A DNA stretch of 64,000 nt from assembly GCA_030141605.1 (NCBI GenBank), contig JAQGDQ010000339.1, forward strand, positions 124,001 through 188,000, in the 5' to 3' direction. A program made the translations under genes and the position numbers. This stretch comes from Tubiluchus corallicola (Eukaryota; Priapulida; Priapulimorpha; Priapulimorphida; Tubiluchidae). Shown here piece by piece: positions 961 through 46,064 of this stretch. Position 1 is the stretch's first letter, and every line of letters begins with the position of its first letter. The notes beneath the pieces were generated by a model. That model was not told the DNA's origin. It was given only the letters and a program-made list of their open reading frames with translations, and did not search any database.

Positions 961-962
961 CT

Positions 963-2560: not shown

Positions 2561-2599
2561 ACCTGAGTGCGTTGATTGATTGTCACGACTCTTATTGCA

Positions 2600-3166: not shown

Positions 3167-3184
3167 ATACGCCCTTCCTAAAGC

Positions 3185-4200: not shown

Positions 4201-4204
4201 ATAA

Positions 4205-4555: not shown

Positions 4556-4632
4556 GTTAGTCACTACATGGATTATCAAGTTCAAACAAGTCACTTCAGT
4601 AAAATCAGTTCACAGCACAACTTATTTTACAC

Positions 4633-6230: not shown

Positions 6231-6232
6231 TA

Positions 6233-7970: not shown

Positions 7971-7986
7971 TCAGTTGTCCAGTCCC

Positions 7987-16731: not shown

Positions 16732-19700
16732 ATGGGTGGCGGTGCAAAATTAAACTCTTACGGTGAATGTATGAAATACACAATGTTCGTATTCAACGTT
16801 GTTAGTCTGGTAGGTTGTCATGTTTTTTTTTAAATCAAATTAATGTTTGCTGTGTTTAGGCATTGTTCACTTTCAAATGCACAATAGACTGTTACGACAA
16901 TAGTACGAAAGAGTACAGCAGATTGCTAATAGAATATGAGATGCCTTGACAGTCTATACAAGTTGCCAGTTTCGTACTCGATCGAGATTCATTTCATTTG
17001 GAACTTAGGCTTAAAGCACAAGAAAATCCTCCACTTGCATAATGCCCAAAAAATTGTCTGGAAATTTTATACCATTTGCTTACTGCCTTTTTGCATACAG
17101 GCCTTGCGTTGGCAGTAACACTGTATAAAACATGTATATTTGAACTCCCGCAATGACGTAGCGCGTGCACACGTCACTAACTAAATAAAATTTAAAATTT
17201 CTGTATCTTGTCAGTAAAATTAAATATACGTTTTTTGGTTAGTGAGTGGTGCACCTTGGAGGCGAGTCAATAAAGTATGAATAAGAGAGCTTTGCTAATA
17301 ACTCGATACATGACCTTTTAATACAGTTAAATTTCTTTCAGAAAGTGTTAAAAGTAAAACTTCAGCAAACTGCCCCCGCCTTCATTTCCATTTTCAGCCA
17401 ATAATTTCTTGGTCTCATCTTCATCTCACTCATGAATTGACGAAAAAAAAGCCGAGAACTCGTCAGATATCATCCTAGGCCAGTACTATGACCTAGCTTA
17501 GCAAGCTGTTCCTTGGGCCAAAATTACACATACATGGCACAGCTTATGCCAAAAAAGATTCACATTAAGATTTAAAAAAGAAATTAAAGTTGCTGCTTAG
17601 CAGTTTCTTGTGAGGCATTTAGTTACTTATTATAACAAGTAAGCCTTTTTACAGTTTTGTTGTGTGCAGTTGCTGTTGTTCAGAGATTAAGTGTACCACA
17701 GCAACGTGTCTTAATTATAACCGTCACGTGACGCGTGGGTAAAGCAAAGATGTGTGATGCATTAGTTCAGTAACTTCAGTTGTTTTACGTGGACTTTACT
17801 TAATTATGCATTAGTCTGGGCGTAGAGTGATTTACTAGCAGGATCTTGCTTCGGAACAAGAAAAAATAAACTAGGTAAGGTTCTAGCTAGCTGTTAAAAC
17901 AATAGCATGGACTGCAAGGCGTTGTCAAGTGTACACAAATGCCTTGTCTACTACACTTAAATTTTGGCCTTTTCACGATTGTCATCAATCGTTGGAACTG
18001 TGAAAAAGCTTATTACCTGCAATGGCATATGCAATTGAGAATGGTGCTCAGCAAATTCTGCGATTTTCCACTTAGGTGACTTCATTTGCCATGCCGCTTC
18101 TGACTGTTCACCTCGTAGAGGCTAAGACACCTCTGCCAGTTCAGTGGCTCATGTCAGAGGCATTACCTGGATACAAGTCCGGTTCTGGTAACGCCACGAC
18201 CGTCCAGTCTGAGTAGGACTGTCACAGATTGCTAAATATCAAGTTGTATGAAAAAGCTGACAAAGTAATTTTCTTAAAAGAGAAACTTCTTTCTCTTTTA
18301 GTAAATGGGGACCACATTGACTAGACACAGACATGGTTTCTCATTGATTGTATAGCTCATTTTTTAAATGTTTGTAAAAAATTGTTTGTTAATGCTTATT
18401 TTACATGTGTATCTATATATTGTTATTCGCGATTCTTGCAGTTGGTTGGCATTGGTTTAGTTGCTGTTGGTGTCTGGACGGTCGTCGACAAGTATTATGT
18501 GGAACGTGAGTATCGTTTGAATGTGGCTCTTTGTTCAGCAGTGCAAATGTCGTTATCATGTACACATGTCTGGAGATCGATAAGTAGAATGCCTCCTGTT
18601 GTCATAGCGTCCAAAGCCAAGAAAATGATGCTGCCTGCATTAATTATTTGTGTGCTTGCACAGCAAAATCGTCCATAAGTCGGCAATTAATTTTTCTAGT
18701 TATTCACATATCTTGAATCTCCGTTTCATAAGGATCATTTTGATACCAAGTTCATCGCTCTATGTAATTTCTGACCTGAGTTAATCCACGTTGAAGTTGA
18801 GGTGCAGGCTGCGCACTGAACGCTGTTAAAATCAGCCATTGTTTTTTGTCGCGCCTCTACAAAATACGCAAACGTTGCTTGCTACGGACTTCGCAAAAGC
18901 ACATTGAAGTTATGTTTAAATCCAGTAGATGGTGTTACTGACGAAGATCTGGGCTTAGCAGTAGAAAAAAGTCCGAAACAAAATGACTGCTTCCACGAGC
19001 TACCATCTGAGTTTGAAAATAAGAGTTTTTTACAATTGCATTACTAGTTTCTAGACAGAACACTGTGTATTGGGTTATACAATTAATCTTTTAGTGTTTT
19101 TCGAACGCTTTTTTGATAATTTGATGCTAGAATATAAAAAGTCTAATATACTTAGCATTTTTTTTACAAAATATGAAAAATTGACACGTGACCAAATTTT
19201 TGGGTCATTCTGCTTTGAAGTATCATAACGTGGTTTTAACTATGCCGATGGGGAACGATTTTGGTATGCAAGCTCACATTTTTTTATTATTTTCTCAATG
19301 AGAGTTTAACACATAAAAACAATTGCTGCCTCTTCTTAAAAAAGTAGGTTAGCTTGATTCGTATCCAAAGTTGGGTTAATCAACTTCACATTTTATTAGA
19401 GGACAGGACACGATTCTTAGCATGATGGGCTTAATTAAAATTTTGATTTAGACATAGTTTATTGTTTAAAGACATGGTCCACCAAAGACGCAACAATATA
19501 AAATTTTTAGATACTATTGTAACATAAAAATTATGATAAAACTTACAGCATTTTATGACATTTTTTCAATCCCTGCTGCCATGCAAGACATGAGAAACCA
19601 CACAAAAGTATCACAAAATGACAAAATTCTAAAAATGGTTTCGTTTCTGTCATTTCTGTTATCATTTAAACTTATAAATATGTAATTTGTAATCTACCCA

Positions 19701-22700
19701 AGCGTAGAATGATCCCGACTTTAAATTGATTTTCCGTAATTACATGCGGCACTATTCACGCTTTTATTACTAAATCTTTCTGACTTTTTTGCAAACATCG
19801 GAATAACTCTAACTTTCTAGAAGGCTTTGCCTTTTCTTTAGAACCGTTCTTCTGTGTCATTGTTATTAGTCCGATCACCACCACCACCATTATCAGTCGG
19901 TTTTGACTCAGAAAGATCAGTGTAATGATGAAAAAGTGCCGTTTCCGTGTCTACACTACTTGTTGCTAACTCTGCAAAATTCAATTTGTTAATTACATCT
20001 CCGTTGTCGAGCAACCGTTGCCGATGCTGCCTGGCTTGATATGCAGAATATGGAACTAGTGCTGCAATTAGAATGCTTGCCAGTATCATTGAACCAGCCA
20101 TTGACATAAATGCAGCATTGACAGATCCTGTGGCATCCGTGAGACTGCCTGAAATAAACGAATCACAAAACTTGTGTATCTTCCACTCAAACTGACAGGT
20201 TATGCACATGTTTTAATAAATTAATATAGAGATAAATGCCATTTTTTAGATATTAGATTTTAGATATTTTAAGACTGAAAACATAAATGTTTTTGTTTTA
20301 TGTCACTCACAAGTTTTTAATACTATGAAATAGTATGCTTAGACTTTGCAACCACGTATGGCTCTACACCAGTGGTTCTTAACCTGGGGTCCTGGTACCT
20401 GCTGGGGGTACCAATTGCTGTCCCAGGTGGCACCAAATGCAAATCTGGTTTATCAAAAATTTTGCCCTGAGAGCGACTCAAAATAAGATATGTCTCAAAG
20501 CTAAGCAAAGAGGATATAGTAGTTGAATCCTGACCCCAATCGTTAAAAGACTCGTTGTTTTTATATAGTAATAGACAAGATGACCCTTTGACACGATATA
20601 TTAATAACTCTGCATGCTGTGTAGGTAGGTAAAACAGCTGAATGTCAAGCGACTGAGTGACTCGTTGTTTTTATATAGTAATAGACAAGATGACCCTTTG
20701 ACATGATATATTAATAACTCTGCGTGCTGTGTAGGTAGGTAAAACAGCTGGATGTCAAGCAACTGAGTGACTCGTTGTTTTTATATAGTAGTAGACAAGA
20801 TGACCCTTTGACACGATATATTAACAACTCTGCATGCTGTGTAGGTAGGTAAAACAGCTGGATGTCAAGCAACTGAGTGACTCGTTGTTTTTTATAGTAG
20901 TAGACAAGATGACCATTTGACACAATACACTAACAACTCTGCATGCTGCTTGCCCGGCAACTTTGTCGCTGTACCAGGAATGTTTAACGGTTAAGTTTAA
21001 CAGTAAATTAATTTGTCAACAATTGGCAAAGGTAAAGTACGCAATAAAAACTAAGAAATACATAGTAATGTCGACAATGGGGCCCGAAAAAAGTGTGCAA
21101 TAACCAAGCACGCTGTATTCAAAGCTATTTTACTAGTTAAATGATGAATGAAAGTTTGTTCTTTTTGAGCGTTCGCATTAGCCATGTGTACGTAGTAAAT
21201 CATGTTCGCTATAGTGGTGTTATACTGTAGTTAAATCTGCAGTAACTGTTTGAAATGATTTTATTCTGTCTTATTTGTAATAATCGCTTTCTTGCATCTT
21301 AAATCAACTCTTCGCTCTATGCTGCAAAGAACTGTTGTGTACTAATTTATGCTATCTGACCTGTTAGTAGCGGTCCAAGGAACAGGGCGCTAGACTGCAG
21401 CAGCTGAACCAGTCCAATCGACGAAGCCATTTTTTCTGGTCCATTTAAGCAGAGCATTAAAACAAATGGAGGTGCATGGCATCCACCAAACAATACACCT
21501 TGTATGATTGTCCACCCCATTAACTGACTGCTCGTCCTAATGTACCATATAAAAACTGTCATAATAGCTGTGAGACATAATAAGGCAGCAAAACTGCCCG
21601 TTTTCATTGTCTGTTGACGCATGATTTTATGAGCATAGATGAAACCCCATATAATTCTAAACACCATTTCAATGAGGCTTAGCATTGAAATGAGCCCAGC
21701 ATCTTCTATTGCACTTGACGGGTTTTCTTCAGCTTCGCGTGTTTCTTTTGATTTGGTAGGCAAGAGAATGTATGTTGTTGAATAAGTGAAATAAAAGAGA
21801 ATCATTGCAATGGCTAATGTCATGTACTGCACGTCTTTTAACAAATCCCAATGAAATAGCTCCTTTCTAGCATTGTTGATGTTGTCATCTGTAGAATGTG
21901 GTGTCCTAGTTTCTTTTTCTTTGTCTTCTTCTACTGTAATTTCTAGTCGACTATAATTATTCTGCTGATGTGTAGTGGTCAAACCGTCTGCTGTTTGTCT
22001 GTCTCCATCTGTTGTACCACAACCATTTTGGACATGGTGTCTGCGTCTCTGCGTTGCGTCAACTACAGCAGTAGGTTGATTTTCACCAAGATTGTCTTGA
22101 ATTCTGCCATTGATAGAAGCAGCACCATTCTGTTCGTTACACTTTAAAGATGGTTTAAGTTTAGGCGATGTTAAGGGTCTATATAAACTGGCACAGACAA
22201 TCAGATTCATTGTGATTCCTCCACATATTAACAGTGCACCCTGATAGTTATAAGCTTCAAGTAGCAGCTCGGTAATAAGAGGAATAATTAACGATCCAAG
22301 TGCTGCTCCTGCTTGTGTGATTCCCAGGGCTATTGATACACGTTTGTCAAACCACTGTGTAACAATTGTCATTGAGGTCACTACGATCATTGAACACCCA
22401 ACTCCTAAAATTACATAATAACATGTTTTGCATTCAGGTGTCCTACAAGGCACAGTGCCTGTACCATTTTTCTTTTTTTAATATATAATTATATTAAAAA
22501 TATGCTGCATTTTTTGCCTTGTCAGATGCAATGACACAAAATTTCAGAAGGCAACAGTTCACGTCTCGTATCTTAGTGCATCTTAGAGTAACAGTTATGT
22601 GAAAGCAAATGTAATAGTAATGCTGAAATATTTGTATCCTGATGTAAAAGTACTTTAATGTTGATGTAATAGTTACATATTTAAGCTTTAAATATTTAAT

Positions 22701-25700
22701 TTGATTTGAGTTCTCCTTTATTCCAAACTTATTGTTCGTAATCAAAATACAGTTACACAGCAATAAATTACAATAACACATGCATAAACTTACAAAGTTA
22801 AACTGTTAAACAATATTTACAATTATGACCAAAAGTGTGGCCTCAGAAAGAGTATTACCATACAAAAGAGAATACGTCACAAACAGAACTCCGATATGAT
22901 TTCCAAAATAACTGAGCGAGATTCCTAATCCTGCACAGACACTGCCTACCATACAGACACGACGAAATCCATACTTATTGCACGCGGCACTAGCCAAAGG
23001 TGCTGAAAATCAATAGAAATTAATTATGTGTAATTTCGTTAACATGTATGACATTGGAAGACTGCAGAATTGAGAAAGAGAAAGCAATACTGATGAAGGC
23101 TAACCTTTCTCAAATCATTTTTAGCTCGAGCGTTTCCACTTTTTGAAAAATGCAATACGGGTTGTTTCAAAAAAAGTGTTTGTCTAAAATAGCAGTATTA
23201 TTAATTTTAATGGAAAATTTTTAGTAAAAAAATTCTTGGATGAGTTCAGCATAAAATGTTATTTTTATGCATGCTACATAGAAGAAGAAAAAAATTTGTA
23301 CTATTTATGTGTACAGTAAATACCTAAAGCAAATGATAGTCCAAAGGCTAGTCCATTTACCCATTGCGTTATAGTTGTACTCGTCCCAAGTGTTTCCTGT
23401 ATGGCTATCATCAAGATTCCGTACGATTTCAATTGACCGATGGTCAGTGCCAGTGCACACATTGCCGCAAACACAATTACCCATCCCCACCCGCCTTCGG
23501 GTGGACTGTGTTTGAGCTTCTCGGGTGCCATTCCTATTTCTTGACTTTAGTCGTAGTTTGGCACTGTATATCACATTTTCTTTGAGTCGTTTAGTTTCCA
23601 AAGCTTGTACAGAATAATTATAGAAAGTGTACTAGTAGCCTAGTAGTCTCATACATAGATTTCTCTGTGCTCACCTTCACATTGAGTATATACACTGAAG
23701 TAAGTATTTTGCGTTTATGATATTTGTACATAGAAACGCCTCGTGTATGATATGTGGGTTAAAGTACAAAGTCTTAATTGCCCGTATTTTGCGACTGACT
23801 TTTGTGTCTAGACCTATTTGATTTTACTTTTTAACTGTCTCACCTGAACAAGAGGCGTGCTTCCTTTTTTGGTAATATAGTTTAGATAGCTATTAAGAAT
23901 ATAGTTGATATAATTACAGAACACATGCCAGTATATCGACAAGATATCTGGGTTAAATACATGTTATTGCAACTTTGACTTGTTTAACTGATCTAATAAG
24001 AGGACTAACTAAATTGTTTAACTACCTATACAAATTTCTTTTCTTCTATTTTAGTGCTCCAATGCAACCAAATGCGATGCATTAGCTGAGCTTGTGTGTC
24101 AATAATTTAAATGTTAAATACGTTAAATGGCTTACTTCCTTAGTTAGTTTGTTTTAAGTATATACATTGTACATTGTATATACAAGTATATCTATTGTTG
24201 ACAGTAGAAGGAGCTGATCTGTGTGCTACTACCGTATATACTTATGTACAAGTCGAATTTTTGGGAGGCAATTTTAAGGTGAAATTTTTGGGGTCGACTT
24301 ATACTTACGATATGTTTTTGGGAGATGTCGCTAAAGAGTCGTCTGCGAATACGAATATGTAAAGAAATAATCCTTCATTATATGCTGGACTGAATGAACA
24401 CTCATACTGTGATACTTCATATCAGAAAATGTTCGCATCTTGACATTACTTCACAAAATTGGCAAATATTACTGTAAGTTATTTTAATGCATGAGAAATT
24501 AAGTTAAAATTTATTTATTACCGTTAAATAAACTAGCGACGGAGCCCTCAATCAGAATATGGAAATAGCCAGGCTGCATTATCATAGATTGCGTTGAGGT
24601 CCCTCAACATGAATATATATACATATATATAATATACATCGGGTAAGTATAATATACTCGGCCCAGGCACTTGCACATATCTTACACACTAACACAGTAG
24701 GCTATTGATTTTACTCGGCCATTGTTGACATCATTTACTGTGGAAGATCCTAATATTTCATGGTCAACTTGTACACAGGTAACATATAAAATGATGCAAT
24801 TTTTGGTCTTAAAATGCACATTGACTTATACATAATGTCAACTTGTACACACGTATCTATGATAATTAACAAATGATTTAGATTGACTAGGACGTGACTG
24901 GACTGTTTAGCTGATTTAATTACACATAGAAAATTTATATTCTTTGCTCATTCTTTGCTCATTGCACCGGAGCTACCTTGAAATCGATCCCGATTCAATT
25001 TTTTTTACGAAAAATGTACCTTATGACAATTACTCACTTCAAAGTAGTGAATAGTTTAATCAATTACGCATCAATAATATCAGTGGTACAGATAATGATT
25101 CTAATTTAGAACAATTTTCTCTGTTCCGCCATAACTGCAGAAGTCTTCAAAGAAACTATGATGATATTATTGATTTTCTCCAATTGGAAAATAGAAACTT
25201 CTCAGTTTTAGCATTTACTGAAACCTGGCTAAAACCGTACAATATAGACCTGTTTAATATACAAAATTATACATGTGTAACAAAATTAGAGAATCAAACT
25301 CGTTACTTTTCTTACAGATCAAAGGGGTTTACACTTTATAAGCAAAAGATCCTTGTTCAAATTCAGGCTGTATCCTAATTTTTTCACATTTTCTGTCCTT
25401 CAACTTTGATATCAAAATTTAATTAATTGTGGGTTTGCTGTACCATGTGTAGAGATAGATTTGTTAAAGAATTGCCATTTGTCACAGCAGCCATGTCGAT
25501 TACTACCCATGTCCAATGAAAGCTGTTCTGCCTGAAATGTAGCGATCCTTTGATATTCAACGTCCTGAGGAACACTGCCACTTCTTGAAAAGTATTTTTG
25601 GAATGCAGGTGAGGTCAATTCACACCTAAAACCGTGTTATTAACTTTCTGAAATTTTGTCATGTTATTAAACTTGGGTCACTGGCAACCTGCTAAACAAA

Positions 25701-28700
25701 ATGATGAAAATTGCTTTTTTGTGATTTACGTCTGCTTTCATTTGTTAGTAAATTAGGAAAACGACCCAAAAATCATAACTACCAATTTACTGACAATGAT
25801 TAGTTTTACTGGGCGGAAAGGCGCAGGTTATTGTACCTCTTGGTCTGTGAGTATGTCAGAATTTTTTTATATTTTTCTAAAACCGTTCTTCTGTGCTGTT
25901 GTGATTAGTCCGATCACTGCCGCCATCATCGGCATGTTTTGAGACAGAAAGATCGGAGTATTGGTGAAAAAATGCCGTTTCCGTGTCTATGCTGCTTGTC
26001 ACTAATTCCACAGCCTTCAGCTGGCTAATTACATCTCCATTGTCGAGTAACCGTTGCCGTTGCTGCCTGGCTTGATATGCAGAATATGGAACTAGTGCTG
26101 CAATTAGAATGCTTGCCAGTAGCATTGAACCAGCCATCAACATAAATGCAGCATTGACAGATCCTGTGGCATCTGTGAGACTGCCTGAAATAAACGAATC
26201 ACAAAATTTATGCAGCTTTTGTTCAAACTGATTAGCTGTATGGTAGTGAATGTTTTTGTGTTCTAATAAGAAACATAGTAATTACTGCTTCTTTATTTTC
26301 GTTTTGCTGAAAATATAGTGAAAATGTTGATTAAATTTTGCTTTTAAATTTAAAATTTAATTTGTTTGTATCAATAAATTTGGTTGGTTCTGGTAGAGGT
26401 CAGTGTCCCTGAATGGTGCTTCCGTAGAAATAATATTTTACTCACTAAAAACAGAGATAAAAGGCAAAATTATTGTGTATCGATCATCTCTAATGCCTCG
26501 ACCATAGATGTTCCTAAAAATGCTTTCTTTTAATGATTTTATTTTGCAAAGACAATGGTTTAAAAATTTAACAACATCAGTAGTCAATTTACATCAAGCA
26601 TTCACGTAACTCAAAATGCAACTGCTTAAATGTTTCTATAGGTTTGAAGTGGTGTTGCTTCGTACTACTTTTCATTTTCGTTTTCTTATGCCCTTCGCAG
26701 ACATGCAATTTTAAATTGCGCACCTTCTAGTTGAAACACAATCGTTAAGCGTTAGGAGAAGACAGTGTCCCATGAAAAGACACTGGAATTGGGGAAGATA
26801 AATTTTTCCTAGTGTCTTTGCTGCCATTTTTCAACAAATTCAGTAACAGTCAGAATTTGGAAACCAAAATATGACGTTCTGCAAGTGAACAGGAGATTGC
26901 GAACAAGTCTTATCCCTCACTGTTGATATTTCCCTACTACTGTGGACTCTTGCACTCAAAGAGTAAAACGAATGAAAGCAATTATACTGAACCATTTCAT
27001 CTTACTCGAATCAATCTTCCCATACTCCACTGCCCATATTGTGTATGAGTAGTTCTTGCCTCAGAAAGATCCCAGTAATCACTGTTGTCCCAGTGATTAT
27101 ACGAACTTTAACTCTCAGTAAAATTTGCTCGACATTATTTAACGTTTCATATGAAATGGCATCGCTAAACCGTGTCTGTATTTGGATGTCATGTCTTTTA
27201 AGCACTTCCTTTCCTTCACTTTTTATGCAGTTTTTATTCTTTTGTAATGTATTTTACAGCTGCTATATGAGTGAGTAAAGTTGTGCATTAATGGATCTGT
27301 GCAGTGATATTGTATTAGCAAATTCTTACAGTGTTTCATACATTTTCTTTCTCTTTTTCGGAATGCAAACAACTTATTCGATTTCATACTCTGTAGTGCC
27401 GGTTGTGCAACTAAAAATCGCATGTCTGCTTGCAGGGTTCTGATGCGCAAAGAAATTACAGTCAATGGTCACTTGCGCAGCTAAATGCGACTAAAATTTG
27501 CATGTCCGCACGGTGCCTGATGTCTGGAATCAGTGCTTCGGTTTCTGTTTTATTACAAAAAAATATGCAGCCGATCATAATCAGTAACTCACCTGTTAGT
27601 AGCGGTCCAAGGAACAGAGCGCTAGACTGCAGCAGCTGAAGCAACCCAATTGACGAAGACATTTTTTCTGGTCCGTTCATGCAGAGCAATAAAACAAATT
27701 GAGGTGCATGGCACCCACCAAACAATGCAGCTTGTATGATTGTCCACCCCATTAACTGACTGCTCGTCTTAATGAACCATATGAAAACTGTCATGATAGC
27801 TGCAAGAAGTAATATGGTAGCAAAACTACCCGTTTTCATTGCCTGACGGCGCATGATTTTATGAGCATATATGAAACCCCATATAATTCTAAACACCATT
27901 TCAATGAGGCTTAGCATTGACACAAGCCCAGCATCTTCTATTGCACTTGACGGGTTTTCTTCAGCTTCACGTGTTTCTTTTGATTTGGTAGGCAAGAGAA
28001 TGTATGTTGTTGAATAAGAAAAATAAAAGAAAATCATTGCAATGGCTAATGTCATGTACTGCACGTCTTTTAACAAATCCCAGTGAATTAGCCCCTTTCT
28101 AGCATTGTTGATGTTGTCATCTGTAGAATGTGGTGTCCTAGTTTCTTTTTCGTCGTCTACTTCTACTGTAATTTCTAGTCGACTATAATTATTCTGCTGA
28201 TGTGTAGCGGTCGAACCATCTGCTGTTCGTCTGTCTCCATCTGTTGCAGCACAACCATTTTGGACATGGTGTCTGCGTCTCTGCATTGTGTCAACTACAA
28301 CAGTAGGTTGATTTCCAACATGATTGTCTTGAATTCTGCCATTGACAGAACCAGCACCATTCTGTTTGTTACACTTTAAAGATGGTTTAAGTTTAGGCGA
28401 TGTTAAGGGCCTATATAAACTGGCACAGACAATCAGATTCATTGTGATTCCTCCACATATTAACAGTGCACCCTGATAGTTATAAGCTTCAAGTAACAGC
28501 TCGGTAATAAGAGGAATAGTTAGCGATCCAAGTGGAACTCCAGCTTGGATGATTCCTACAGCTATTGATACACGTTTGTCAAACCACTGGCTAGCAATTG
28601 TTAACGATGTCACTACAACCATTGAACACCCAACTCCTAAAAATAAGTAATAATGTGTTATTGCATTCAGGCATGCTGCAATGCACAGTACTTGTACCAT

Positions 28701-31700
28701 TTTTTCTTTGTCAATATGTTATTACATTAATAATATAGTGTGTTTGCCGCATCAGATGCAGTGACACAGAACTTTCAGAACACAGCATTTCTTTTCATAA
28801 TGTATCACTGTTTTTAATCACAGGATTGTATCATCAAGTGCTGTAGTCATAGTGGTAGTTGTAGTCAGACTAACATCTCCAGCTGCAGCAGCTACAGACA
28901 CAAAGATTGCAGAATGCGTAAATCTCTTCTGCTAGTACATAACCTAGTACAAAAATGACTTAATGTTTCTTTTCTCAAAAATTTTGCTGCATCATGGAAA
29001 GTCGCATTGATGCTCATTATATACTTACCATACAAAAGAGAATATGTCACAAACAGAACTCCGATGTGATCTCCAAAATAACTGAGCGAGATTCCTAATC
29101 CTGCACAGACACTCCCTACCATACAGACAGGACGAAATCCATATTTATTGCTCGCAACACCTGCCAAAGGTGCTGAAAATCAATAGAAATTAATTATGTG
29201 TAATTTCGTTAACATGTATGACATTGGAAGACTGCAGAATTGAGAAAGAGAAAACAATACTGATGGAGGCTACCCTCTCTCAAATCATTTTTAGCTCGGC
29301 ATTTCCACTTTTTGAAAAATGCGATACGGGTTGTTTCAAAAAAGTGTTTGTCTAAAACAGTAGTATTATTATTTTCAATGGAAAGCTTTCAGTAAAAAAA
29401 TCCTGGCTGAGTCTAGTACAAAACACTATTTTTTATGCATGCTGCATAGAAGAAGAAAAAAATTTGCACTAATTATGTGTACAGTACTTACCTAAAGCAA
29501 ATGATAGTCCACTTGCTAATCCATTTACCCATTGTGTTATAGTTGTACTCGTGCCTAGCGTTTCCTGTATGGCTATCATCAAGATTCCGTACGATTTCAA
29601 TTGACCGATGGTCAGTGCCAGTGCACACATTGCCGCAAACACAATTACCCATCCCCACCCGCCTTCGGGTGGACTGTGTTTGAGCTTCTCTGGTGCCATT
29701 CCTGTTTCTAGACTTTAGTCGTAGCTAAAGCACTTTATATCACATTTTCTTTGAGTCTGTTTAGTTTCCAAAGCTTGTACAGTATAATTACAGAAAGTGT
29801 ACTAGTAGCCTAGTAGTCTCAGGCATAGATTTCTGTGTTCGCCATGATATTGAGTGTCTGCACTGAAGTAAGTATTTCATATCTATATTTATGCATTTAA
29901 ACACCTGGTGTTGTTTGCAATGTGGCTTAAAGTACAAGGTCTTAATTGTTCATATTTTATGACTGACCTTTACATCTAGACTAGAATCTTAGTGAACAAA
30001 ATTGTTGTCTTGCATGGGTATTAGTTTAAATCAACAATAACAAATCGATATATTTTACTATTTACTATTATTACTATTTACTAAATGATTGTGACCCATG
30101 ATAGATTACTTTAATTCAGTTCAAGCTCAGTGCATTAATTACAGGCCTAAAAGCATCTGTCTTGCGAGCAGAAGGCCCCCAGTTCAAATCCAAGCTGTGT
30201 CCCAACTTTTTCATATTTTTGTCTTTCAAGTTTGACATCGAACTTTAATTAATTCTGGGTTTGTTCATCGTAGAGATACTACTGAACCTTGTTATAGCGC
30301 CCCTGTTATAATGCCAGCCTCGCCATAATGCTAACTTTTGCCCTGTCCCGATTTTCTTAATGTATTAAATATAGGGAATATCGCCAACCACGCCTACCGC
30401 CCTCCGCCAACGTATCTGCTGTGCCAAATGTTCATTTTACGTGATAAATCAACCCCGTTATAACGCCAGTCAAAATAAAGCTGCTGAATTACTGCTGAAA
30501 AACAACCATAACCGACATTGAAAAACAATTATCTCTGATAAGAAAACAGTTATGGTGTTTAAATTAAGATTTAGGTTTCGTAGCAAGTGACTGTATGAAA
30601 GTGAATGTTGAGGTTTTGAGCAAGGCGTATGCATTTTAAGACTACAAGAGTTGCATAACTATGGTTCAGTACTGAACTGATGTGAATTTAATGGCTGTAA
30701 AGCTGTTTGATCAATTTATAAACGGCAGCTAATTATAGTCTAACTGTCCAGTAATATTACGTTGGGAGTGTGGGTGGGCCGCATTTGTGTCACTCAATTC
30801 AGTGTAATTGTGGCCGTGTTACTTGTGCACTCTGTGTAGTCTAAATCAATGCTGGCCAGTTGAAGGTAATGTCGGCCACCAGATAGGGTCATGTCGGCCA
30901 GGCTGACAGCAGTGCGTTTTGATACATTCTAAGTCTTATTATTGGTAGAATCTCATCATTACAGAAAGGTCGTTCATACTGTGACACTATCAGATTAAAT
31001 ACTATTCATTAGCTTATTGCATAATTGCTTAAGTCAAAATATTGTTGCTTCTCGTATGCCGACATACTCTACTTTCATCAAATCATGACAAACTTCAAAC
31101 ATGAAAACAAAATTTTGGCATGAAAACAATGTAGTTATCTGTAAAAAGTTTCTGACAAAATTTATTCATCATAACAATATACGCCTTGTTCATCTTTAGT
31201 TTTTTTTTATTTAAAGCCGATGGTGCTGTTGTAAGTTTTTCTTAGACTTAGATGAGATGAACTTCATTTGGGGCGAGCTTGTCAGATTTTATGATGGACT
31301 TCTTCTTGCACATTTCTTGTTTTGATTTTCCACCTTTTTGGTGAAGTCTGTGAAACTTACTTCTCAAGGACCTGCTGGATGTGAATAGCCAGGCACAGCA
31401 GCAGATTTTGATTACTCCTGGTGGTTATTGGCAGGAACGTAATGAACAGAAGTGCTTGGTTGTGGATTATCATGTTTCATATCAACAGCCGCATTATCTT
31501 CAACATGTACAAGGCTGATATCTTGGACTCCTACAGCATAGTTGTCATCCATTGATTTCAGGCTCAAGTGCAACATTAGGCAATAGTCTATCGATTTTTT
31601 TACTTTGCAGAAATGCATCTCTGGAAATGCGAGTTGGATAAAAGGGATATATTCCCGCTCTTATGAATCCTTTTTTGATATACTCTTTGATTGATGGCCG

Positions 31701-34700
31701 ACATTACCCCAATATACCCTACTGTTTTAATGCATCAAATAAGCCTTTTCATAGTTTCGTTGTGTGCATGCGCAGTTGCTGTAGGTCAGCAGTTAAGTGA
31801 CATTTGTGTATAGCAAAGCGTCTGCTGCATCAGTTCAGTAACTTCAGTTGTTTTACACTTAATTATGTATTAGTCTGTGCATAGAATGATTTACCAGCAG
31901 AATCTTACTTGGGAACAAGAAAAAATGAACTAGGTAAGGTCTTAGCTAGCTGTAAGTATGTTAGTTAACTGTAAGTATGACAATAGCTTCGACTGCAAAG
32001 CATTGTCAAGTGTACACAAATGCGTTGTCTGGTACACTTAACCTTTAACCCTTTCACGATCATCATCAATCACTGGAACTGTGAAAACACTTATTAGAAC
32101 GAACATCAGGTATTTGGATTCGCAGCCTCTGTCTTCCTATTAACACAGTATTTATATTATTTGCAGGCTTGACAGGTCTAACATTATGGGTGACAGGAGC
32201 CTACATTCTGATTGCTGGAGGGTGCGTAGTTGTCATCCTTTCATTGTTTGCGTGTCTGGGAGCAATTAGAGAAATCAAAAGCCTTCTGGTGACTGTAAGT
32301 AAAAAGATACTTTAATTCCAGTCTTTTTACCTTGATTGCTGAAAATGAAAGATACCAATGCACTCATATTTCGGTTTCCTGGGCAAAAACGGGGAGACGT
32401 CTGTCCGAATTTGCCAGTTGTCCGCATTTCCTGTTGCTAAGCTAAGTCAGTAGGTGCTATGTATTAGACTCATGGTAATGTAGAATCAATCGCCTACCTG
32501 TCTCAAGAACATCTAGTACGGGCCGCTCCTGACATGGAAGTTACAGACATGTTGTTACACGCTGCTTGGTTGCACTGTAGTAATGATGTAACTGTGCCCG
32601 TAGTATGCAGGACTTTTGATGTCATAGATTTTGTCTGATTTTTCCGATATCTGTAAAAGTGATGTCCGGCAAACCGAGATATGAATGTAATGTTTACGTT
32701 CTTGTATTGTAAGCCATTTGTAATGTAGTGGACAAATATGTTAATAGCATCTTTTTTGTATAAACATATTTAGTTAAATACAGAATTGTCAATAAAGTAA
32801 CAAGCTGCTTAACACAAGATTTTTATGTATAAGTATTAAAAAATCAATACTCACTGGCACCCACTACAGATTGTTAAATGAAAACTGATAACACAACATA
32901 CAAGCAGTTAAAAATGGCAACCTAAAAAGACACTTTATTATGACTAAAATCATGGCAAACTACTCCGCTAGTGCTGACACCTATCGGCATCAAATACAGT
33001 TAACATGAACACGATACACTTATAATTATAAAAAGAATGTTGCCTACTTTTACAAATAAGCATTGCAGTGAATGAAATAACTGATGTCAATCGGATAGAT
33101 GCTATTAGAACAATAAGCAGCTTATAAATAAACTACAAAAAATGATACGACTAGCCAAGCATAACATGAACAAGATTGATAAAAATGGCATTGTTTAAGA
33201 GAAAGAAAAACAGTCCCATACAAACTGTTGTAGCTGAATTTGCGTTTTCGAAGATATAATATACATCTATATTTCAAACATGAGCATCTAATTAACAGAG
33301 TCAGAGAGATCATTAAATCCACAAAGCAGGGAGTTAACAGCAGTTTAAAAAGTGATCTTCTTAGTGTAAGCTTCGTGGCTGATACTGGCAAGTGACCATA
33401 TGATCACATGACTTATTCATGACTGTAGGTGACATTATAGACTTTGTATCTGCTTTAGAACAGTATCTTGTTTTTACAATAATACGGGGTGCCTCAAAAG
33501 ACACCTCAAATTTTCTTTTTTTTATTTTTCTCCAATGTCGGCAAGCTCTTACATGAAACAAAAGGTGTCTTTGTGAATTCTTTTTCTTGATTTCTTACTG
33601 AACCACGTTGCCATGGCAATGACACTAACGTTAGAAATTAGATGCCAAATCAGCATGGCGTGAGGTCCTTCAATCACCAACTGAAGTACAGCAGAAATTC
33701 AGTGTATTGTATAAACCACTCCATTCTCTCACTATTAACAATGTAATTTTTCAACAAAGTGCAGCCCTTTCGCACTACTCATGAACTGTGAGAGACTTTT
33801 TCAATGTAATATGCACGACTTGACATTGGATTGGTCACTGAAGCTCTTGAGATCGGCGAAGAATGGCATTGCAGCATCGAGTTGCTGTCTGCTGTAGGCA
33901 ATTTTACACTGCTTGTTGTTTAGTTGATATTGGAACAAAATTATTTGAGTGATGCTCAGATAAGCAATCGATCAAACAGTAGTCGTGTTGAAGATTATAA
34001 CAGTTACTAAAGCCAGGGTTTTCACGGGGTGACGACCAAAATTCACCTGACTGTGTTTTATCGCCCAAGTTGTAAATATCTCATGCAAACTTCTAAGTAA
34101 TTTCGTGCAGTTTTTGCTATTTATCCTGCACAATTTTTGAATTCTGAATTTTTGGATTTTGGCTCAGAGGCAATCGCAGGATATTCGCACGAGCATATTA
34201 CGACTTTTTCGCAGAATTTTCATGAAAAAAGTGCTAAATAACTGATGTTCTCCAAAATTTTGCCGAAAGGTTGCACGAAGTCCTCGCAGCATCCCGGGAG
34301 GCATTTTAAAATATTCTCCAAGCTTTTGCAAATTTTGAAATTGTTGGCGAATGTCACGAATAATTGGCGACTTATTTGCACAAGTTTGGTACATATTCAG
34401 AGAACTTCACAACAGTTTGGCGAGTTTTGCAACACCGACGGCAAATTTTAAACATTTTAAAGTTTTCTGCAGAAACCATTGTTTTGTGATTATTTGTGGG
34501 ACTTTTGGAGCATATTTAGCGACTGTCGGACTCTGGAAATTTACAGATAGTCGTCGAAGTCGCAGAGCCCGTCAAACTGTGGCTTTGACAAAATGGCTGC
34601 ATAAGTGATCCAAATGTCACATTAGTTGTTTTTGTACTTAAACTATTCCATCTAATAATTCTTATTTCTTGTTTGTTTCAGTACTTCGTATTACTACTTC

Positions 34701-37700
34701 TCATTTTCATGGCTATTCTGTGCGGTGGAGTCTTTGCCTGGATCTACCGTGGAACGGTAAATGCATCCATGAACATCATTCCGCAAACCTGCTAAGATTT
34801 CCTACCTGAAGGATTGGATTAGTTTTATGCATGTTTTGTGGTGTCTGGCTTTCCTAATTCCATTTGTGAACATTTTCCAGGGATGTTACCAAAAGTGAAA
34901 TTACAAACCGAATCCTAAATTTGCGAATCATAGGAATCCGAATCGAAAACAAAGCAAAACTGAAATTATTATTACAAAACCGACTACAGTTAAAACTGAA
35001 ACAAATTTGAAATAAATAAAACAGTTCACAAAATAAATTTTATTTTGTAAATATTCCGTTGGCTGCATTTCATAATTGTAAAATTAAAGTTTTTTTTTGT
35101 TCAAATTACACTTTATTTTGCCGTGATGCTAGTCGGGTATTTCTTATTTCTCATTTCTCGGGCATTAGCCTCTAGTAACTCGTCTCGCCTGAGGTGTCCT
35201 ATTGTCACCATCAAATAAGACTTGATTTGATATTGCTTCCTGATCGGTCTCCGATTTCCGATTGTGAGTTCGTCATTTAGTAGAGAATATTTTTACACTG
35301 CTATCCTCAGTATAGGAATGGTACATTTTCTGGGAGTGTTCGCTATTGATTAACTCACCTTCGTAATTTACCTTCATGGTGAGTAAACCCTGATTTCTGT
35401 CTCTTGCACCAATCTCTCATCCATTAGATAGCCAAAGCACACCCTTGTCCAGTTTTTCACTGTTGGTTTACTCTCCTCCTAATATACCAAACTGGTATTA
35501 AAATAGGAGGTTTCTCGCTTGGAGTTCTGCATCAAGTTTATGTTTAAAACTATTTACATCACAGTGTTCCCTCGCTACTTCGCGGTTCGTTTAGCGCGGA
35601 CTCGTTGTTTTGCGGGTTTTCAAAAATATCAATGTAAAATATTTATCGCGGTATTTTCGCTGTTCTGCGGGTTTTTGCGGTACTCCGTCTAAAGTATTTT
35701 TGCACATGCGTAGTACTTATTGTACAGTAATGTGTTGATTTGATGAATTTTGCAAAAATCACAAAATGTATAAAAATATATTAAAAATATTAATTCTAAC
35801 ATTAAAAAAATGTTATAAATCATAAAAAATTACCATTTACAGTAAATGGTGTATTTATTTGGCGGATGAATACACACCAAAAACGAAATGTAGTACTTGC
35901 GCCGGCTTGAGATGCTACTTGCCGACTTGAGATTGTATCTAGGTTTAAGAGTTTAAAACATTTTTATGAACATTTAGGTAAAGTTTTTTAGAAGGTACAT
36001 GTACAGTATGGGAAAAGTTATTAAAGGAATGGGAAAGGGTTATGTATAAGAGTGTGGGGAGGGCTTATAAAGACTTAAAATAATGTATAACTACAAAAAT
36101 AAGTATAGTGTCCCTACTTCGTGGAAATTCACTTATCGCGGGTGGGTCTGGAATGGAACACCCGCGATAAGTGGGGGAACACTGTATTTGCTCTCATTAA
36201 TGATTCCCATGACGAGTTCCACATTATCACTTCAGCTTGTGAAGAACTAATATACCGGTACCTTTCTGTATTGACCCTATGCTTGAACAATTTAACACTA
36301 CGCCTTCTTGCAGACAGCTGATCACTTTAGCCTGACTTTGCAGCAAGTGTTAGAGGAAAGCCAGACACAACCTTAAACCGTAATTCAAAACAATTTACCC
36401 TACAAAATATTGAAGGGAACATTATATTTTTAAAGAATGGTGTACGAGAAAGGTTTTCCGCCCCAGAAATGTAATTTTGTGTTCGTGCGGCTAATTCCTC
36501 GTTGTTACATGCATTGTGCCATTCTGCTAACTTGATGGGCACTAGTACCTGCATTTTAAAATGCATTGTGCAAAAAGAACAGGCGCTGCATCCCTCACTT
36601 CAGACGTGGTTCATTTATGATGTAGTGCACACATTTGATATCTCATGACTTGCCACAGTGGTAAACGTGAAATTTTAGCTTTGTAACTTAAAATTTGCTG
36701 AGTTTTGTGTGTCGTGCTGATTGTTGCGCAGTATCATACTGTACTTCGATTTTTGCTTTCCCAAACACGTGTAACATGCTCATGAAATGTTTGTGTTGTT
36801 GAAAATTATGCTCATTTGTGACGTTATCACTGTTTGCGCTCACCGGCTGTTAAAGTTTTTATCCATTACTTAATTATCAGAAACACTTTGGCATTATTAT
36901 AAGTGCTAAAATGTGTACTTTTTCCCGTACTTCAAAGTATGGTAGAATGTGAAAAATCATCCTGATTCCTTTAACGTATTGTTATTGTTTTTATAGCTTG
37001 ATTTAGAGCTGAGGTCTAAATTCCGACAAACAATGATGAACGACTACGGTCAGGAATACAAACAGAAGACGACAGATGCATGGGATTACATGCAGAGAAC
37101 TGTATGTATGGATTCCTCTCGTTGTGGGGGCTAGTAGAGTTTCCATAACCGGTGGAAAATATGTAAAAGGAAATCATAAAGTAGTGGTTAACATGGCTTG
37201 CGTTATTTTCATGCATTCGGCTGAAGATAATACATCTTACATGGTGTTTCAGAGTCATGCAACAGTTTGACCGCGCAACGCAAACTTCGCACGATGATAT
37301 TGTGTATTCGTTTTAAATAAAACTAAAAATTCACCGAAATATGTGATGCTAACCCGCAAAGCATTATGGGCTAGATCAAATGCATTGAAATTGATTTCAT
37401 AAATCACTGTTGATTAGTCAATAATTTTATACCAATTTTTTTTGATTGGGAATCGCCATTTAACAAAAGGCATGAAGTAAAACATGAAAATCTGTATCTT
37501 TATTTTGATACTTTTCAGGCTCATATCCAGCACTTACTGAGTTTATTTTAAAGTCGTCAACTTCTCCACTATTTCATCTATGCATTTTTTTGCACAATTT
37601 GAGGATGCTGTCAAGTGTGAAATATTCTTTATTTGCTATTTCTCTTCACAAGTTCATGTGTCAGTTTAAAGCACAAGCAAATCATTTGCTTACATAAAGT

Positions 37701-40233
37701 TGAAATAATTTGTCTTGAAATTTTATATTATCTACTTACTGCCTTACTGCACACCGGGCTTGTGTCAGCAGCAATGCTGTATAAAACTTGAAAATTTAAA
37801 CTACCGCGATGACCGATGGGCGCAGCCATTTTGACCGCAGTTCGTTTGAAACAAGTTTAGATAACGTTGCATAAAGTTTGAAAAAATAACCAAAGCATTC
37901 GCAGCACACGCTTCACTAACTAAGTAAAAGTATAAATTTCTGCACCTTATCATAAAATTGAAAATACGATTTTTGGTGAGCCACTGGTGCACACTGGGAA
38001 GGTGAGTCAGTAATGTTTTACCTGTTGGAGTGAACATTTAAAAGAATTTTCCTTTCTACATGTAGTTACTTAAGTCTTTCAAGGAGGTAAGCATAATGCA
38101 TAGTAATATAACTTTGTGTGAAGTTTTTTGGGGCATCTTTAAAATTGTCCGTTCTTCCCCTTTAACTATATTCGTTAAACTTTCAGTTGCACTGCTGTGC
38201 CGTTGACTCAGCCACAAACTACACTTGGTGGCGTAACAGTCTCTGGGGGCAGGAGTACCCGGGCAAACGTTCACCGGACAGTTGTTGTATTCGTGGGAGG
38301 GAGGCAGAGTGCAGAAACAACAACAAGCTACCAGCCAATAAATATCTCTTCACAAAGGTAAGAAATTTACACAGTTCTTAGAGTGAGGGAAATTAGAGGA
38401 GTGGTAACGGTGTATCCGTAGCAATTATTATCAAATGACGCCAAAACTGGTCGCTAAATGGTAACTGGATAGGTGACCGGCTGGAAAACTGCCTCTGGAC
38501 TGTTTCATTAGCCATGCTACAGCATCTGAACACAGCTGAAATAATTCTGCCGTTTCACTGTTTCGTTCTAGATTAATCCTTGATACTTGATTGGATAAGT
38601 AGGAATTCATTTACTGAATTGTATGCAAATTATGACTTGGTCATCACAATAGACTTGTTAACTGGTATCGCCATTACAAATGGTATTATTATTATTATTA
38701 ATATTATTATCATTGTTACTATTAATGTTGCTGTTGTTATTATTATTATTTCTATTATTATTGTTGTTGTTGTTGTTATTATCATTATTATTATTAAAAT
38801 ATAAAATTTAAAATGTTTTTATTTTTTAGGGGTGTTACGACCGAGCGTACGAAGTTATGCACGAACATCTTGCAATCATCGGCGGCGTCGGAGTCGCTGT
38901 AGCTGTGCTACTTGTAAGTTTAAAGTAAACTAGATTGGACTAATACAATTAATCAAGATTGTAGATGGCACCACTAGTTGTGTATGCTGAGTAATTAGAG
39001 AATGTAATAAATAATCAGTAGTGTTTTTCGGGAGATAACTCTACGTTGGCCAAAAAATATGTTTATGGTTTTTGCCACTGGAGGGCAACTGTAGGCGAAT
39101 CGGTAGGCATTGAAGCTTTGAAGGTAAGCTTTGAAGAAGTCCACCTTTGTGTTTTGTAAATGTATTTGAGTCCATGCAATTTTTTGGTTTTGATTTTCCA
39201 ATGTAGGAACTGAAAATGTAAATACACATGACAGTCATATATATATTATGATTACTTTATTTCCAATGGAATCAAGCATGGTGGGTACACATATATACCT
39301 GCCCTACTGGAAAAACTGCCCTACTATGATAGCATAGCCGTACACCATTTGTGACATAATTTAACAATGCGCTCATATGTTTATCACAAAGGGGATAAAA
39401 TGTATATTTATAGTGAGCATACTTGCTGTACAGAAGATTTAAAAGAAAGAGTTTGCAACGATGCCAGAATAATATTATGTTTAAACTGTTACTATTAGAG
39501 GCATTAATGATTTCCAAGACAGTGGAGAAAATTGAGTACGATGTGTGAACAGCTTGTTTTGATGAGTGGCTTCGTGTTTGATTTTGTTAAGTTTACAAGT
39601 TTCTTTAGCTATTCATTGTTTTCTGATGTCACACACCCACGACCGCTAAAAGATAGCGACAGAAAAGTGAGAAACTGCAGTTTTTCTTCATATAATTGAT
39701 ATGCATTGTTTACAGGTGACACCAAGTGATTTGTTTACAGGTGATACCAGGTGATTTGTTTACAGGTGTTATTTTGCTTACAGGTGATACCAGGTGATTT
39801 GTTGGCAGACCGATATTGTTTACATGTGACTGTAGGTGACTTGTTTACAGGTGTTATTTTCTTTACATGTGCTATCAGATGATTTGTTGACAGATCTGAA
39901 GTTGTTTACAGGTGTTATTTTGCTTACAGGTGATACCAGGTGATTTGTTGACAGATCTGATCTTGTTTACAGGTGATACCAGGTGATTTGTTTACAGGTG
40001 TTATTTTGCTTACACGTGATGCCAGATGATTTGTTGACAGATCTGGTGTTGATACAGGTGATACCAGGTGATTTGTTTACAGGTGTTATTTTGCTTACAG
40101 GTGATGCCAGGTGATTTGTTGACAGACCGATATTGTTTACATGTGATTGTAGGTGACTTGTTTACAGGTGTTATTTTGTTTACAGGTGATCGGAATGATA
40201 TTTGCCATCTGCTTAGTGAGACAGATCGACTAG
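16732..40233 (+). CDS. tetraspanin, eight exons, CD151/TSPAN11-like layout
   Basis: Exons: 16732-16809, 18442-18505, 32167-32294, 34682-34756, 36997-37101, 38187-38357, 38830-38913, 40186-40233 (753 nt, 250 aa plus stop). All junctions are GT..AG and the frame is kept throughout. Four transmembrane segments lie at about residues 16-38, 57-80, 90-113 and 222-245. The large extracellular loop has C153 C154, PDSCC (C183, C184), C192 and C209, with an N-glycosylation site at N161. The short first loop resembles that of CD151. Tetraspanins organise integrins and other partners into membrane microdomains. The hallmark CCG motif reads CCA here. Intron 2 is 13.7 kb and houses two SLC16 genes on the other strand. 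The first ATG follows an acceptor-like CTTCAG. Confidence 0.92.
16970..17350 (+). repeat. dispersed repeat family R1, copy 1
   Basis: Shares blocks with 37655-38186, 47315-47690 and (inverted) 46325-46890: TTAAAGCACAAGAAAA, GGCAGTAACACTGTATAAAAC, ACGTCACTAACTAA and GAGTGGTGCACCTTGGAGG. It lies in tetraspanin intron 1. No coding potential. Confidence 0.75.
17637..18014 (+). mobile_element. MITE family R4, copy 1 (tetraspanin intron 1)
   Basis: Matches 31738-32095 along its length (for example CTAGGTAAGGTTCTAGCTAG and GTCAAGTGTACACAAATGC). The ends are inverted: it starts with AAGTAAGCCTTTTT and ends TGAAAAAGCTTATT. About 380 bp, no ORF. Confidence 0.7.
18649..19278 (-). mobile_element. MITE family R2, copy 2 (tetraspanin intron 2)
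   Basis: Inverted copy of the element at 5568-6230, with the same terminal repeats (left end TGTGTGCTTGCACAGCAAAA; right end reads TGCAAGCTCACA). It begins about 140 bp after tetraspanin exon 2. Clear TA duplications are not visible at this copy. Confidence 0.78.
19838..23531 (-). CDS. SLC16 family monocarboxylate-type transporter, copy A
   Basis: Exons on the minus strand: 23531-23324, 23002-22859, 22404-21361, 20148-19838 (1707 nt, 568 aa). All introns are GT..AG in phase 1. The N-terminus carries the SLC16 signature PEGGWGWVIVFAAM at the start of TM1. The second signature QWFDKRVSIALGITQAG lies before TM5. A long, charged cytoplasmic loop of about 110 residues separates TM6 and TM7, and six further TM segments follow. 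The tail after TM12 is hydrophilic. SLC16 proteins move monocarboxylates, aromatic amino acids, thyroid hormone or other small molecules across the plasma membrane; the substrate cannot be read from sequence. The whole gene sits antisense in intron 2 of the tetraspanin gene, and a close paralogue lies about 2.3 kb to its right. Confidence 0.93.
20370..20548 (+). mobile_element. hAT-type terminal sequence, fragment
   Basis: CAGTGGTTCTTAACCTGGGG matches the typical terminal repeat of hAT (Charlie-like) elements. It lies in intron 3 of SLC16 copy A and runs into the 110 bp tandem repeats. No right end with a matching 8 bp duplication was found. Confidence 0.55.
20549..20945 (+). repeat. 110 bp tandem repeat, 3.6 copies
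   Basis: GACTCGTTGTTTTT begins at 20549, 20659, 20769 and 20879, an exact period of 110 bp, with each unit containing GACAAGATGACCC and GTAGGTAGGTAAAACAGCTG. Copies differ by a few substitutions. Located in intron 3 of SLC16 copy A and absent from copy B. Confidence 0.92.
23532..23790 (-). promoter_or_regulatory. duplicated 5' flank of SLC16 copy A
   Basis: This flank is closely similar to 29700-29960 upstream of copy B (for example CACATTTTCTTTGAGTC and GTACTAGTAGCCTAGTAGTC). The duplication therefore carried the proximal upstream region, and probably the promoter, of both genes. Confidence 0.6.
24231..24860 (+). mobile_element. possible MITE with ACCGTATATACTTATGTACA end
   Basis: ACCGTATATACTTATGTACA followed by AGTCGA resembles termini of widespread small DNA transposons. 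Related inverted motifs (TTGACTTATACATAA, CAACTTGTACAC) occur near 24820-24860. Boundaries are uncertain. Confidence 0.4.
25060..25375 (+). mobile_element. LINE endonuclease-domain fragment
   Basis: The plus strand reads FRHNCRSLQRNYDDIIDFL, then FSVLAFTETWLKPYNIDLFN, a characteristic CR1/jockey endonuclease segment (ALTETWL motif). It is a short remnant between the two SLC16 genes. Confidence 0.7.
25325..25445 (+). repeat. SINE-like fragment sharing flank with 30145
   Basis: Shares GTTCAAATTCAGGCTGTATC and the following TTTTTCACATTT..AATTAATTGTGGGTTTG with 30170-30265. Only the B-box side is present. Confidence 0.4.
25877..29699 (-). CDS. SLC16 family monocarboxylate-type transporter, copy B
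   Basis: Exons on the minus strand: 29699-29492, 29172-29029, 28636-27593, 26184-25877 (1704 nt, 567 aa). Exons 1-3 have exactly the same lengths as copy A; exon 4 is one codon shorter. It has the same SLC16 motifs (PEGGWGWVIVFAAM and QWFDKRVSIAVG) and the same long TM6-TM7 loop with scattered substitutions. Both frames are open with intact splice sites, so both copies look functional. Introns 1 keep long runs of identity, but introns 3 differ (copy A holds the 110 bp tandem repeat). It is a recent tandem duplicate, also nested antisense in tetraspanin intron 2. Confidence 0.93.
30120..30265 (+). repeat. tRNA-derived SINE-like sequence
   Basis: AGCTCAGTGCATTAATT resembles a Pol III A box and AGTTCAAATCC (30181-30191) a B box, with TCTTGCGAGCAGAAGGCCCC between them, as in SINE heads derived from tRNA. 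The A-B spacing is longer than in a true tRNA and no acceptor stem forms, so it is not called a tRNA gene. Confidence 0.4.
30285..30490 (+). repeat. possible decayed pogo-like MITE
   Basis: CTTGTTATAGCGCCCCTG at the left and CCCCGTTATAACGCC at the right recall pogo-type ends of the CTCGTTAT..GCC kind seen at 11644, but the terminal bases are not inverted cleanly. Confidence 0.35.
31738..32095 (+). mobile_element. MITE family R4, copy 2, 71 bp before tetraspanin exon 3
   Basis: Copy of 17637-18014 in the same orientation. Ends are inverted (AATAAGCCTTTTCATAG; GTGAAAACACTTATT). It lies at the 3' end of tetraspanin intron 2. Confidence 0.7.
32295..34681 (+). other. tetraspanin intron 3, no second gene seen
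   Basis: A 2.4 kb intron. ORFs inside (for example 34351-34608) lack recognised motifs. No MITE boundaries could be drawn. Confidence 0.6.
35562..36184 (+). mobile_element. pogo/Tigger-like MITE in tetraspanin intron 4
   Basis: The left end CAGTGTTCCCTCGCTACTTC and the right end (reverse complement CAGTGTTCCCCCACTTATCG) are inverted repeats. TA follows on the right (36185-36186); the left flank reads CA instead of TA. Internal repeats of GCGGG type. About 620 bp, no transposase. Confidence 0.8.
36350..36979 (+). mobile_element. MITE family R3, copy 1, 17 bp before tetraspanin exon 5
   Basis: Matches 60402-61022 and 61053-61641: each starts near AGGAAARCCRGAC..ACCTTAAAC and ends GAAAAATCATCCTGNTTCCTTTA, giving short inverted ends (TAAAGGAA). 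Its right end lies within the pyrimidine tract region of the exon 5 acceptor. Confidence 0.75.
37655..38186 (+). repeat. dispersed repeat R1, copy 2, ending at the tetraspanin exon 6 acceptor
   Basis: Shares the R1 blocks (TTTAAAGCACAAG, CAATGCTGTATAAAACTTG, GGTGCACACTGGGAAGGTGA, CAAGGAGGTAAGCATAATG). Its distal part, GTGTGAAGTTTTTTGGGGCA followed by a pyrimidine-rich run, corresponds to the inverted copy before MZT1 and leads straight into the TTTCAG acceptor at 38186. Confidence 0.7.
38681..38800 (+). repeat. (ATT/GTT)n microsatellite in tetraspanin intron 6
   Basis: About 120 bp of imperfect ATT and GTT trinucleotides ending 30 bp upstream of the exon 7 acceptor. The T-rich sense may add to the polypyrimidine context. 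Confidence 0.9.
39710..40190 (+). repeat. tandem array of acceptor-like TTTACAG/GTG units
   Basis: About fourteen ACAGGTG cores, mostly as TGTTTACAGGTG, alternate with GATACCAGGTGATTTGTTG and TTATTTTG spacers at about 20-65 bp. The array fills the 3' end of tetraspanin intron 7. The true acceptor (40184-40185, before GTGATCGGAATG) is its last unit. The preceding unit's acceptor (exon start 40168) is exactly 18 nt upstream and in frame, and another AG at 40152 is also in frame. Confidence 0.92.
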
Positions 40234-45948: not shown

Positions 45949-46064
45949 TGTTAGTACTAACATCAGTTAGCTACAAATACATCCAAAATAGTTTCGTAAA
46001 AGCAATTTAGGAACAATCATAGAAAATTATCAGTTAAAACAATCACACAGTGGCACAGCAAAAC

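Follow-up and report, generated by a model that had tools for sequence, protein, structure and literature searches.

The second intron of a CD63-like tetraspanin gene in Tubiluchus corallicola very probably houses two complete SLC16-type genes on the opposite strand, in a nest that would have arisen by intron gain, gene entry, duplication and gene conversion. The analysis covered a 64,000-nucleotide stretch of contig JAQGDQ010000339.1 (the window), which contains no N bases. The coding exons of all three genes and the host intron are listed in Table 1.

Table 1. Coding exons of the tetraspanin gene and of the two nested SLC16 genes, with the host intron; positions are those of the window.
Feature	Position	Strand	Remarks
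Tetraspanin exon 1	16732..16809	+	start codon, first half of TM1
Tetraspanin exon 2	18442..18505	+	remainder of TM1, small extracellular loop begins; ends in phase 1
Host intron 2	18506..32166	+	13,661 bp, gtgagt...ttgcag, phase 1
Tetraspanin exon 3	32167..32294	+	small loop finishes, TM2
Tetraspanin exon 4	34682..34756	+	TM3
Tetraspanin exon 5	36997..37101	+	large loop
Tetraspanin exon 6	38187..38357	+	cysteine-rich large loop; CC-CC-C-C completed in exon 7
Tetraspanin exon 7	38830..38913	+	last large-loop cysteine, TM4 begins
Tetraspanin exon 8	40186..40233	+	remainder of TM4, stop codon; acceptor = end of minisatellite
SLC16 copy A exon 1	23324..23531	-	start codon
SLC16 copy A exon 2	22859..23002	-	
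SLC16 copy A exon 3	21361..22404	-	
SLC16 copy A exon 4	19838..20148	-	stop codon; no MFS match scanned by itself
SLC16 copy B exon 1	29492..29699	-	start codon
SLC16 copy B exon 2	29029..29172	-	
SLC16 copy B exon 3	27593..28636	-	
SLC16 copy B exon 4	25877..26184	-	stop codon; first part within MCT2 match, which extends to residue 500

The eight plus-strand exons of the host gene join into one open reading frame of 753 nt that encodes 250 amino acids. All seven introns have GT-AG borders, and upstream of the start codon in exon 1 an in-frame stop lies at a distance of 36 nt with no ATG between the two. The joined protein matched the Pfam tetraspanin profile PF00335 in a single stretch covering profile positions 2-225 of 225 (E = 1.3e-49), and in a phmmer search it matched eight PDB sequences, including TSPAN7, CD9, CD53 and CD81. 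Counted by eye from the translation, the large loop contains six cysteines in the pattern CC-CC-C-C. In the passages of Garcia-Espana et al. 2009 (PMC2650405) that deal with cysteine patterns, this arrangement marks the CD63-like group, and the predicted host is a CD63-like tetraspanin gene.

The earlier note had claimed that exons 2 and 3 join in frame and that the 13.7 kb between them is one intron. The reading frame, the splice sites and the profile coverage all bear this out, and the positions given there for the two exons and for the outer limits of the gene (16732 and 40233) proved exact. Scanned by themselves, exons 1-2 matched profile positions 2-26 (23.1 bits, 6.6e-5, not reaching the family cut-off of 32.1) and exons 3-8 matched positions 47-225 (1.3e-41); the two halves are therefore complementary. 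A tblastn search of the window with the tetraspanin protein returned nine rows, namely the eight exons and one opposite-strand row with E = 7.3 that is attributable to chance, and thus no further tetraspanin exon.

Two ways of dividing the exons between separate transcripts were considered and rejected. The first was a separate protein ending after exon 2, but exon 2 with its read-through matched no tetraspanin profile. The second was a start codon within the open frame at exon 3. This frame is open upstream as far as 32085 and contains no ATG, so the start codon for exons 3-8 has to come from elsewhere; exon 3 together with the open extension matched PF00335 weakly (14.8 bits, E = 0.023), and mostly through exon 3 itself. 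The simplest reading is one tetraspanin gene with a 13,661-bp intron 2. Its other six introns measure 472-2,387 bp.

Both SLC16 genes had been placed wholly inside this intron and on the opposite strand, and they are found there: the coding exons of copy A span 19838-23531 and those of copy B 25877-29699, both on the minus strand, and the distances from the intron borders to the nearest SLC16 coding exons are 1,332 bp and 2,467 bp. Copy A encodes 568 amino acids and copy B 567, each in four coding exons separated by three phase-1 GT-AG introns, and an in-frame stop lies 18 nt upstream of each ATG. The two proteins are identical at 496 of 567 aligned residues. The MFS profile PF07690 matched residues 25-459 of copy A (9.2e-43, 146.9 bits) and residues 25-431 of copy B (2.9e-42, 145.3 bits). 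When the exons of copy A were scanned singly, exon 1 had no match in Pfam and exon 4 none to an MFS family.

Copy B, the copy used for the PDB search, matched 14 sequences, including MCT2, MCT1, MCT10 and MCT8. The matches fell into two stretches for MCT2 (residues 7-207 and 321-500, 1e-34), for MCT1 and for one of two MCT10 rows, and into one stretch for MCT8. In this search the similarity to monocarboxylate transporters covers both six-helix halves; the tail past residue about 500 (the last 67 residues) is assigned solely by the likeness of the two copies to each other. Both copies contain the sequence PPEGGWGW, which we take to be the EGGWGW-type TM1 motif of monocarboxylate transporters. 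Both also have an arginine in TM8, which is aligned with an arginine of MCT2 in the copy B alignment, and a lysine in TM1 is aligned too; the acidic residue four positions before the arginine is Glu here and Asp in MCT2. Judging from this context, the TM8 arginine is probably equivalent to R278 of hMCT4, a residue that PMC3729688 reports as shown to matter. Family membership suggests that the products of both copies may carry monocarboxylates.

The pair had been described as nested tandem duplicates. This stands in so far as they are two related antisense copies, but they are not simple recent copies. Their similarity is a mosaic: the exons and intron 1 are alike, and the outer flanks and the greater part of introns 2 and 3 show no such likeness. 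BLAST aligned three blocks, 85-91% alike: the first runs from about 280 bp above the ATG across intron 1 to the end of exon 2, the second comprises the last 145 bp of intron 2 plus exon 3, and the third takes in the last 47 bp of intron 3 together with exon 4 and ends 5-6 nt beyond the stop. Shuffle tests between the copies gave z scores of 89.6 for intron 1 and 22.8 for the 3' part of intron 2. The best shuffle was not exceeded by the 5' part of intron 2 (z -1.1), by most of intron 3 (z 0.7), by the 3' flank (z 2.5) or by the 5' flank (z -0.5). A recent simple tandem duplication, which the exons suggest, was rejected with these tested introns and flanks at shuffle level. A retrocopy origin is unlikely because each copy has three introns.

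In the coding DNA the copies differ at 142 of 1,701 aligned positions, and 71 of 567 codons change the amino acid (dN 0.063, dS 0.178 by NG86; no stop and one indel of one codon). Divergence is uneven along the genes: substitutions number 27 in 318 positions of intron 1 against 29 in 142 positions of the last 145 bp of intron 2 (Fisher p = 0.0006), and silent changes affect 11 of 198 codons in the middle of exon 3 against 37 of 272 elsewhere (p = 0.005, with the segments picked after looking). Of two run tests on the silent sites, one gave p = 0.037 and the longest-run test p = 0.14. The mosaic would fit an old tandem duplication with gene conversion between the copies, a reading that is moderately supported; the alternative to gene conversion is that intron DNA was replaced through insertions and deletions. 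The mosaic is also a natural setting in which gene conversion between nested duplicates can be tested. Inside intron 3 of copy A there is also a 110-bp tandem repeat of 3.6 copies (20549-20948), which matches nothing else in the window, copy B included.

Neither SLC16 copy contains a frameshift or a stop, and the intact frames and the small number of indels suggest that both have probably been retained by selection, at least over most of their history. Nine indel events were counted in 582 aligned noncoding bases, and if one copy were drifting, the 1,704 coding bases should at this rate have collected about 13. The coding sequences have one, which is in frame (Poisson P(at most 1) = 2.7e-5). 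The rate was taken from two of the five noncoding stretches measured; one other lies inside a used stretch, and when the last two, with 3 events in 189 bases, are included the rate stays practically the same (9/582 versus 12/771). The dN/dS ratio between the copies is 0.36 by NG86, 0.38 by LWL85 and 0.43 by YN00, and these values by themselves may be compatible with relaxed selection on one copy.

One possibility is that copy B alone is expressed and that copy A is dying or already dead. All three of its splice donors (gtattt, gtaata and gtcaga) deviate from GTRAGT, which all three of copy B (gtaagt, gtaagt and gtgagt) fit, and predicted pairing with U1 is weaker in copy A (-5.6, -5.1 and -6.9 kcal/mol) than in copy B (-10.0, -8.6 and -11.7 kcal/mol). 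Given these donors, copy A may be poorly spliced or recently silenced. However, U1 duplex energies at the seven tetraspanin donors range from -1.1 to -9.5 kcal/mol with a median of -5.3, so by the standards of this window the copy A donors are not unusual. Copy A also scores as well as copy B against PF07690, and it has an AATAAA 70 nt beyond its stop, while the nearest ATTAAA to the stop of copy B is at 454 nt and the nearest AATAAA at about 1.36 kb. The lack of a stop or frameshift in copy A is a weak argument taken alone, as the simulated chance of finding no stop is 0.35, 0.17, 0.087 and 0.046 for 30, 50, 71 and 90 neutral changes, respectively; the indel deficit is the stronger argument against a dead copy. 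We regard the loss of copy A as unlikely. Recent silencing is possible, and for this reason the alternative and our main reading do not exclude each other.

The earlier note raised the question of transcriptional interference or coordinated expression, and it could be speculated that the nest is functional. Transcription of the tetraspanin gene would then repress or time the SLC16 genes, through polymerase collision or through antisense pairing with the intronic RNA, and the arrangement would have been kept for that. Such a role accords with the location of both copies entirely inside the host intron and on its opposite strand. On the other hand, the coding exons of the tetraspanin and SLC16 genes do not overlap and, at the distances between the nearest host and nested coding exons given above, there is no complementarity between the coding portions of the spliced RNAs. 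The relevant passages of PMC3192792 put the antisense share of nested human genes at about 63% and cite one survey without correlated expression of host and nested genes, as well as another with a negative correlation for some; the TipE cluster, as described in excerpts of PMC3240667, shows poor expression correlation with its host gene. A functional nest seems to us distinctly improbable, and the most likely explanation is that insertion and duplication took place in a long intron and that the resulting nest has simply been tolerated, the genes presumably being uncoupled in function. The tetraspanin transcript would run across both SLC16 genes and remove them with intron 2, and each SLC16 copy would be transcribed from a promoter of its own, with splicing of its three phase-1 introns.

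The host intron itself looks newly gained. The sections of PMC2650405 on intron position give the ancestral animal tetraspanin introns as six, all in phase 0, and the phases here are, in order, 0,1,0,0,0,0,0. By number and phase, six of the seven introns thus fit the ancestral set, and the phase-1 intron in the small loop, which is the host intron, would be the extra one. The same source finds newly gained introns in excess in the small extracellular loop (46% in its abstract, 36.7% of 79 in its discussion), and it lists derived, frame-breaking introns between ancestral introns 1 and 2 in several groups. Compared with the CD63-like tetraspanins as portrayed there, our gene is alike in the number and phase of six of its introns (phase 0) and in its CC-CC-C-C large loop and unlike in the extra phase-1 small-loop intron that hosts the SLC16 genes.

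We propose that the intron was gained in the coding stretch of the small extracellular loop, between ancestral introns 1 and 2, and that an SLC16 gene already bearing introns then entered it as DNA. The gene would next have duplicated in tandem together with its 5' flank. Gene conversion would have kept parts of the two copies alike, and over the same time the 3' flanks and the greater part of introns 2 and 3 would have diverged. A bolder version, which we consider very improbable, is that the intron is lineage-specific rather than old and invaded, and that the insertion of SLC16-bearing DNA into the codons of the small loop created or lengthened it, in which case nest and intron share one origin. 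A comparison of related genomes could order intron gain, gene insertion and duplication.

An assembly artefact, in which the SLC16 copies would be two alleles set in tandem or intron 2 a misjoin, is scarcely credible, as the flanks of the copies are unrepeated (the 5' homology ends about 280 bp above the ATG and the 3' homology 5-6 nt beyond the stop), most of introns 2 and 3 differ between them, dS is 0.18, and a misjoin would need to connect two complementary tetraspanin halves in frame.

Several repeats lie in or near the tetraspanin gene. Direct repeats at 17736-18015 in intron 1 and 31805-32096 in intron 2 are 78% alike; each is upstream of the next tetraspanin exon, and exon 2 and the two SLC16 genes lie between them. 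It was considered whether the whole 18-32 kb segment had been inserted between these repeats; as exon 2 is within that interval and the window contains other dispersed repeats, we take the pair as probable copies of a mobile element. An inverted repeat pair (5567-6235 and 18644-19279, 78% alike over 677 aligned columns) has one arm in the host intron and is probably a mobile element as well. In the last tetraspanin intron, a minisatellite at 39706-40190 carries copies of the 3' splice site of exon 8. It holds 14 ACAG|G sites, the last of which is the acceptor used at 40186, and 16 donor-like AGGTGA sites; use of the ACAG|G copy at 40168, 18 nt farther upstream, would keep the frame open and lengthen TM4 by six residues.

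Elsewhere in the window, a single open frame of 952 amino acids on the plus strand (7846-10704) has 3'-5' exonuclease and Mut7-C domains by Pfam and presumably resembles EXD3/mut-7. A 315-amino-acid single open frame on the minus strand (45019-45966) has no Pfam match at E 0.001, and we take its C-terminus to recall syntaxin 17. Retroelement-like frames occur at 12802-14205 (plus strand, with a reverse transcriptase domain by Pfam) and at 1-4609 (minus strand, Ty3-like by eye only). Searches of the window with Rfam at gathering thresholds and with ARAGORN found nothing.

Among the titles and abstract openings listed by literature searches that covered nested genes, tetraspanins and monocarboxylate transporters in combination, and nested genes with gene conversion, there was no report of this arrangement. 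Nested intronic genes, even tandem families, are already known in animals, and excerpts of the papers concerned allow some comparison; in PMC3786989, about 6% of D. melanogaster genes are given as intronic. The LRRTM genes in alpha-catenin introns (PMC3933685) resemble the present case in being antisense nested genes for membrane proteins within a large host intron. They differ in that each host has one such gene with one or two coding exons, presumed by the authors to have moved by retrotransposition, whereas the SLC16 genes have four coding exons and are duplicated inside the intron. The TipE cluster in the last intron of insect CG18675 (PMC3240667) is likewise a family cluster nested in a single host intron, with expression distinct from that of the host. 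Its genes use both strands and their terminal exons overlap the host, in contrast to the present nest, in which coding exons do not overlap.

The GMC oxidoreductase cluster in the second intron of insect Flo-2 (PMC1891103) is an arrangement of the same kind: a row of paralogues occupies one intron of an unrelated gene, which encodes flotillin-2, a lipid-raft protein, and almost all of the GMC genes are on the strand opposite to the host, as are both SLC16 copies. In the passages on this locus the authors speculate on shared regulation or coordination. The gene families are different and the Flo-2 locus is known from four insects, with an extent of 80.9 kb in D. melanogaster, as opposed to two copies in 13.7 kb in one genome here. 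As it stands, this is an ordinary nested-gene arrangement, and it provides a clean example of two tandem genes that are nested in antisense orientation within a single, seemingly newly gained intron.
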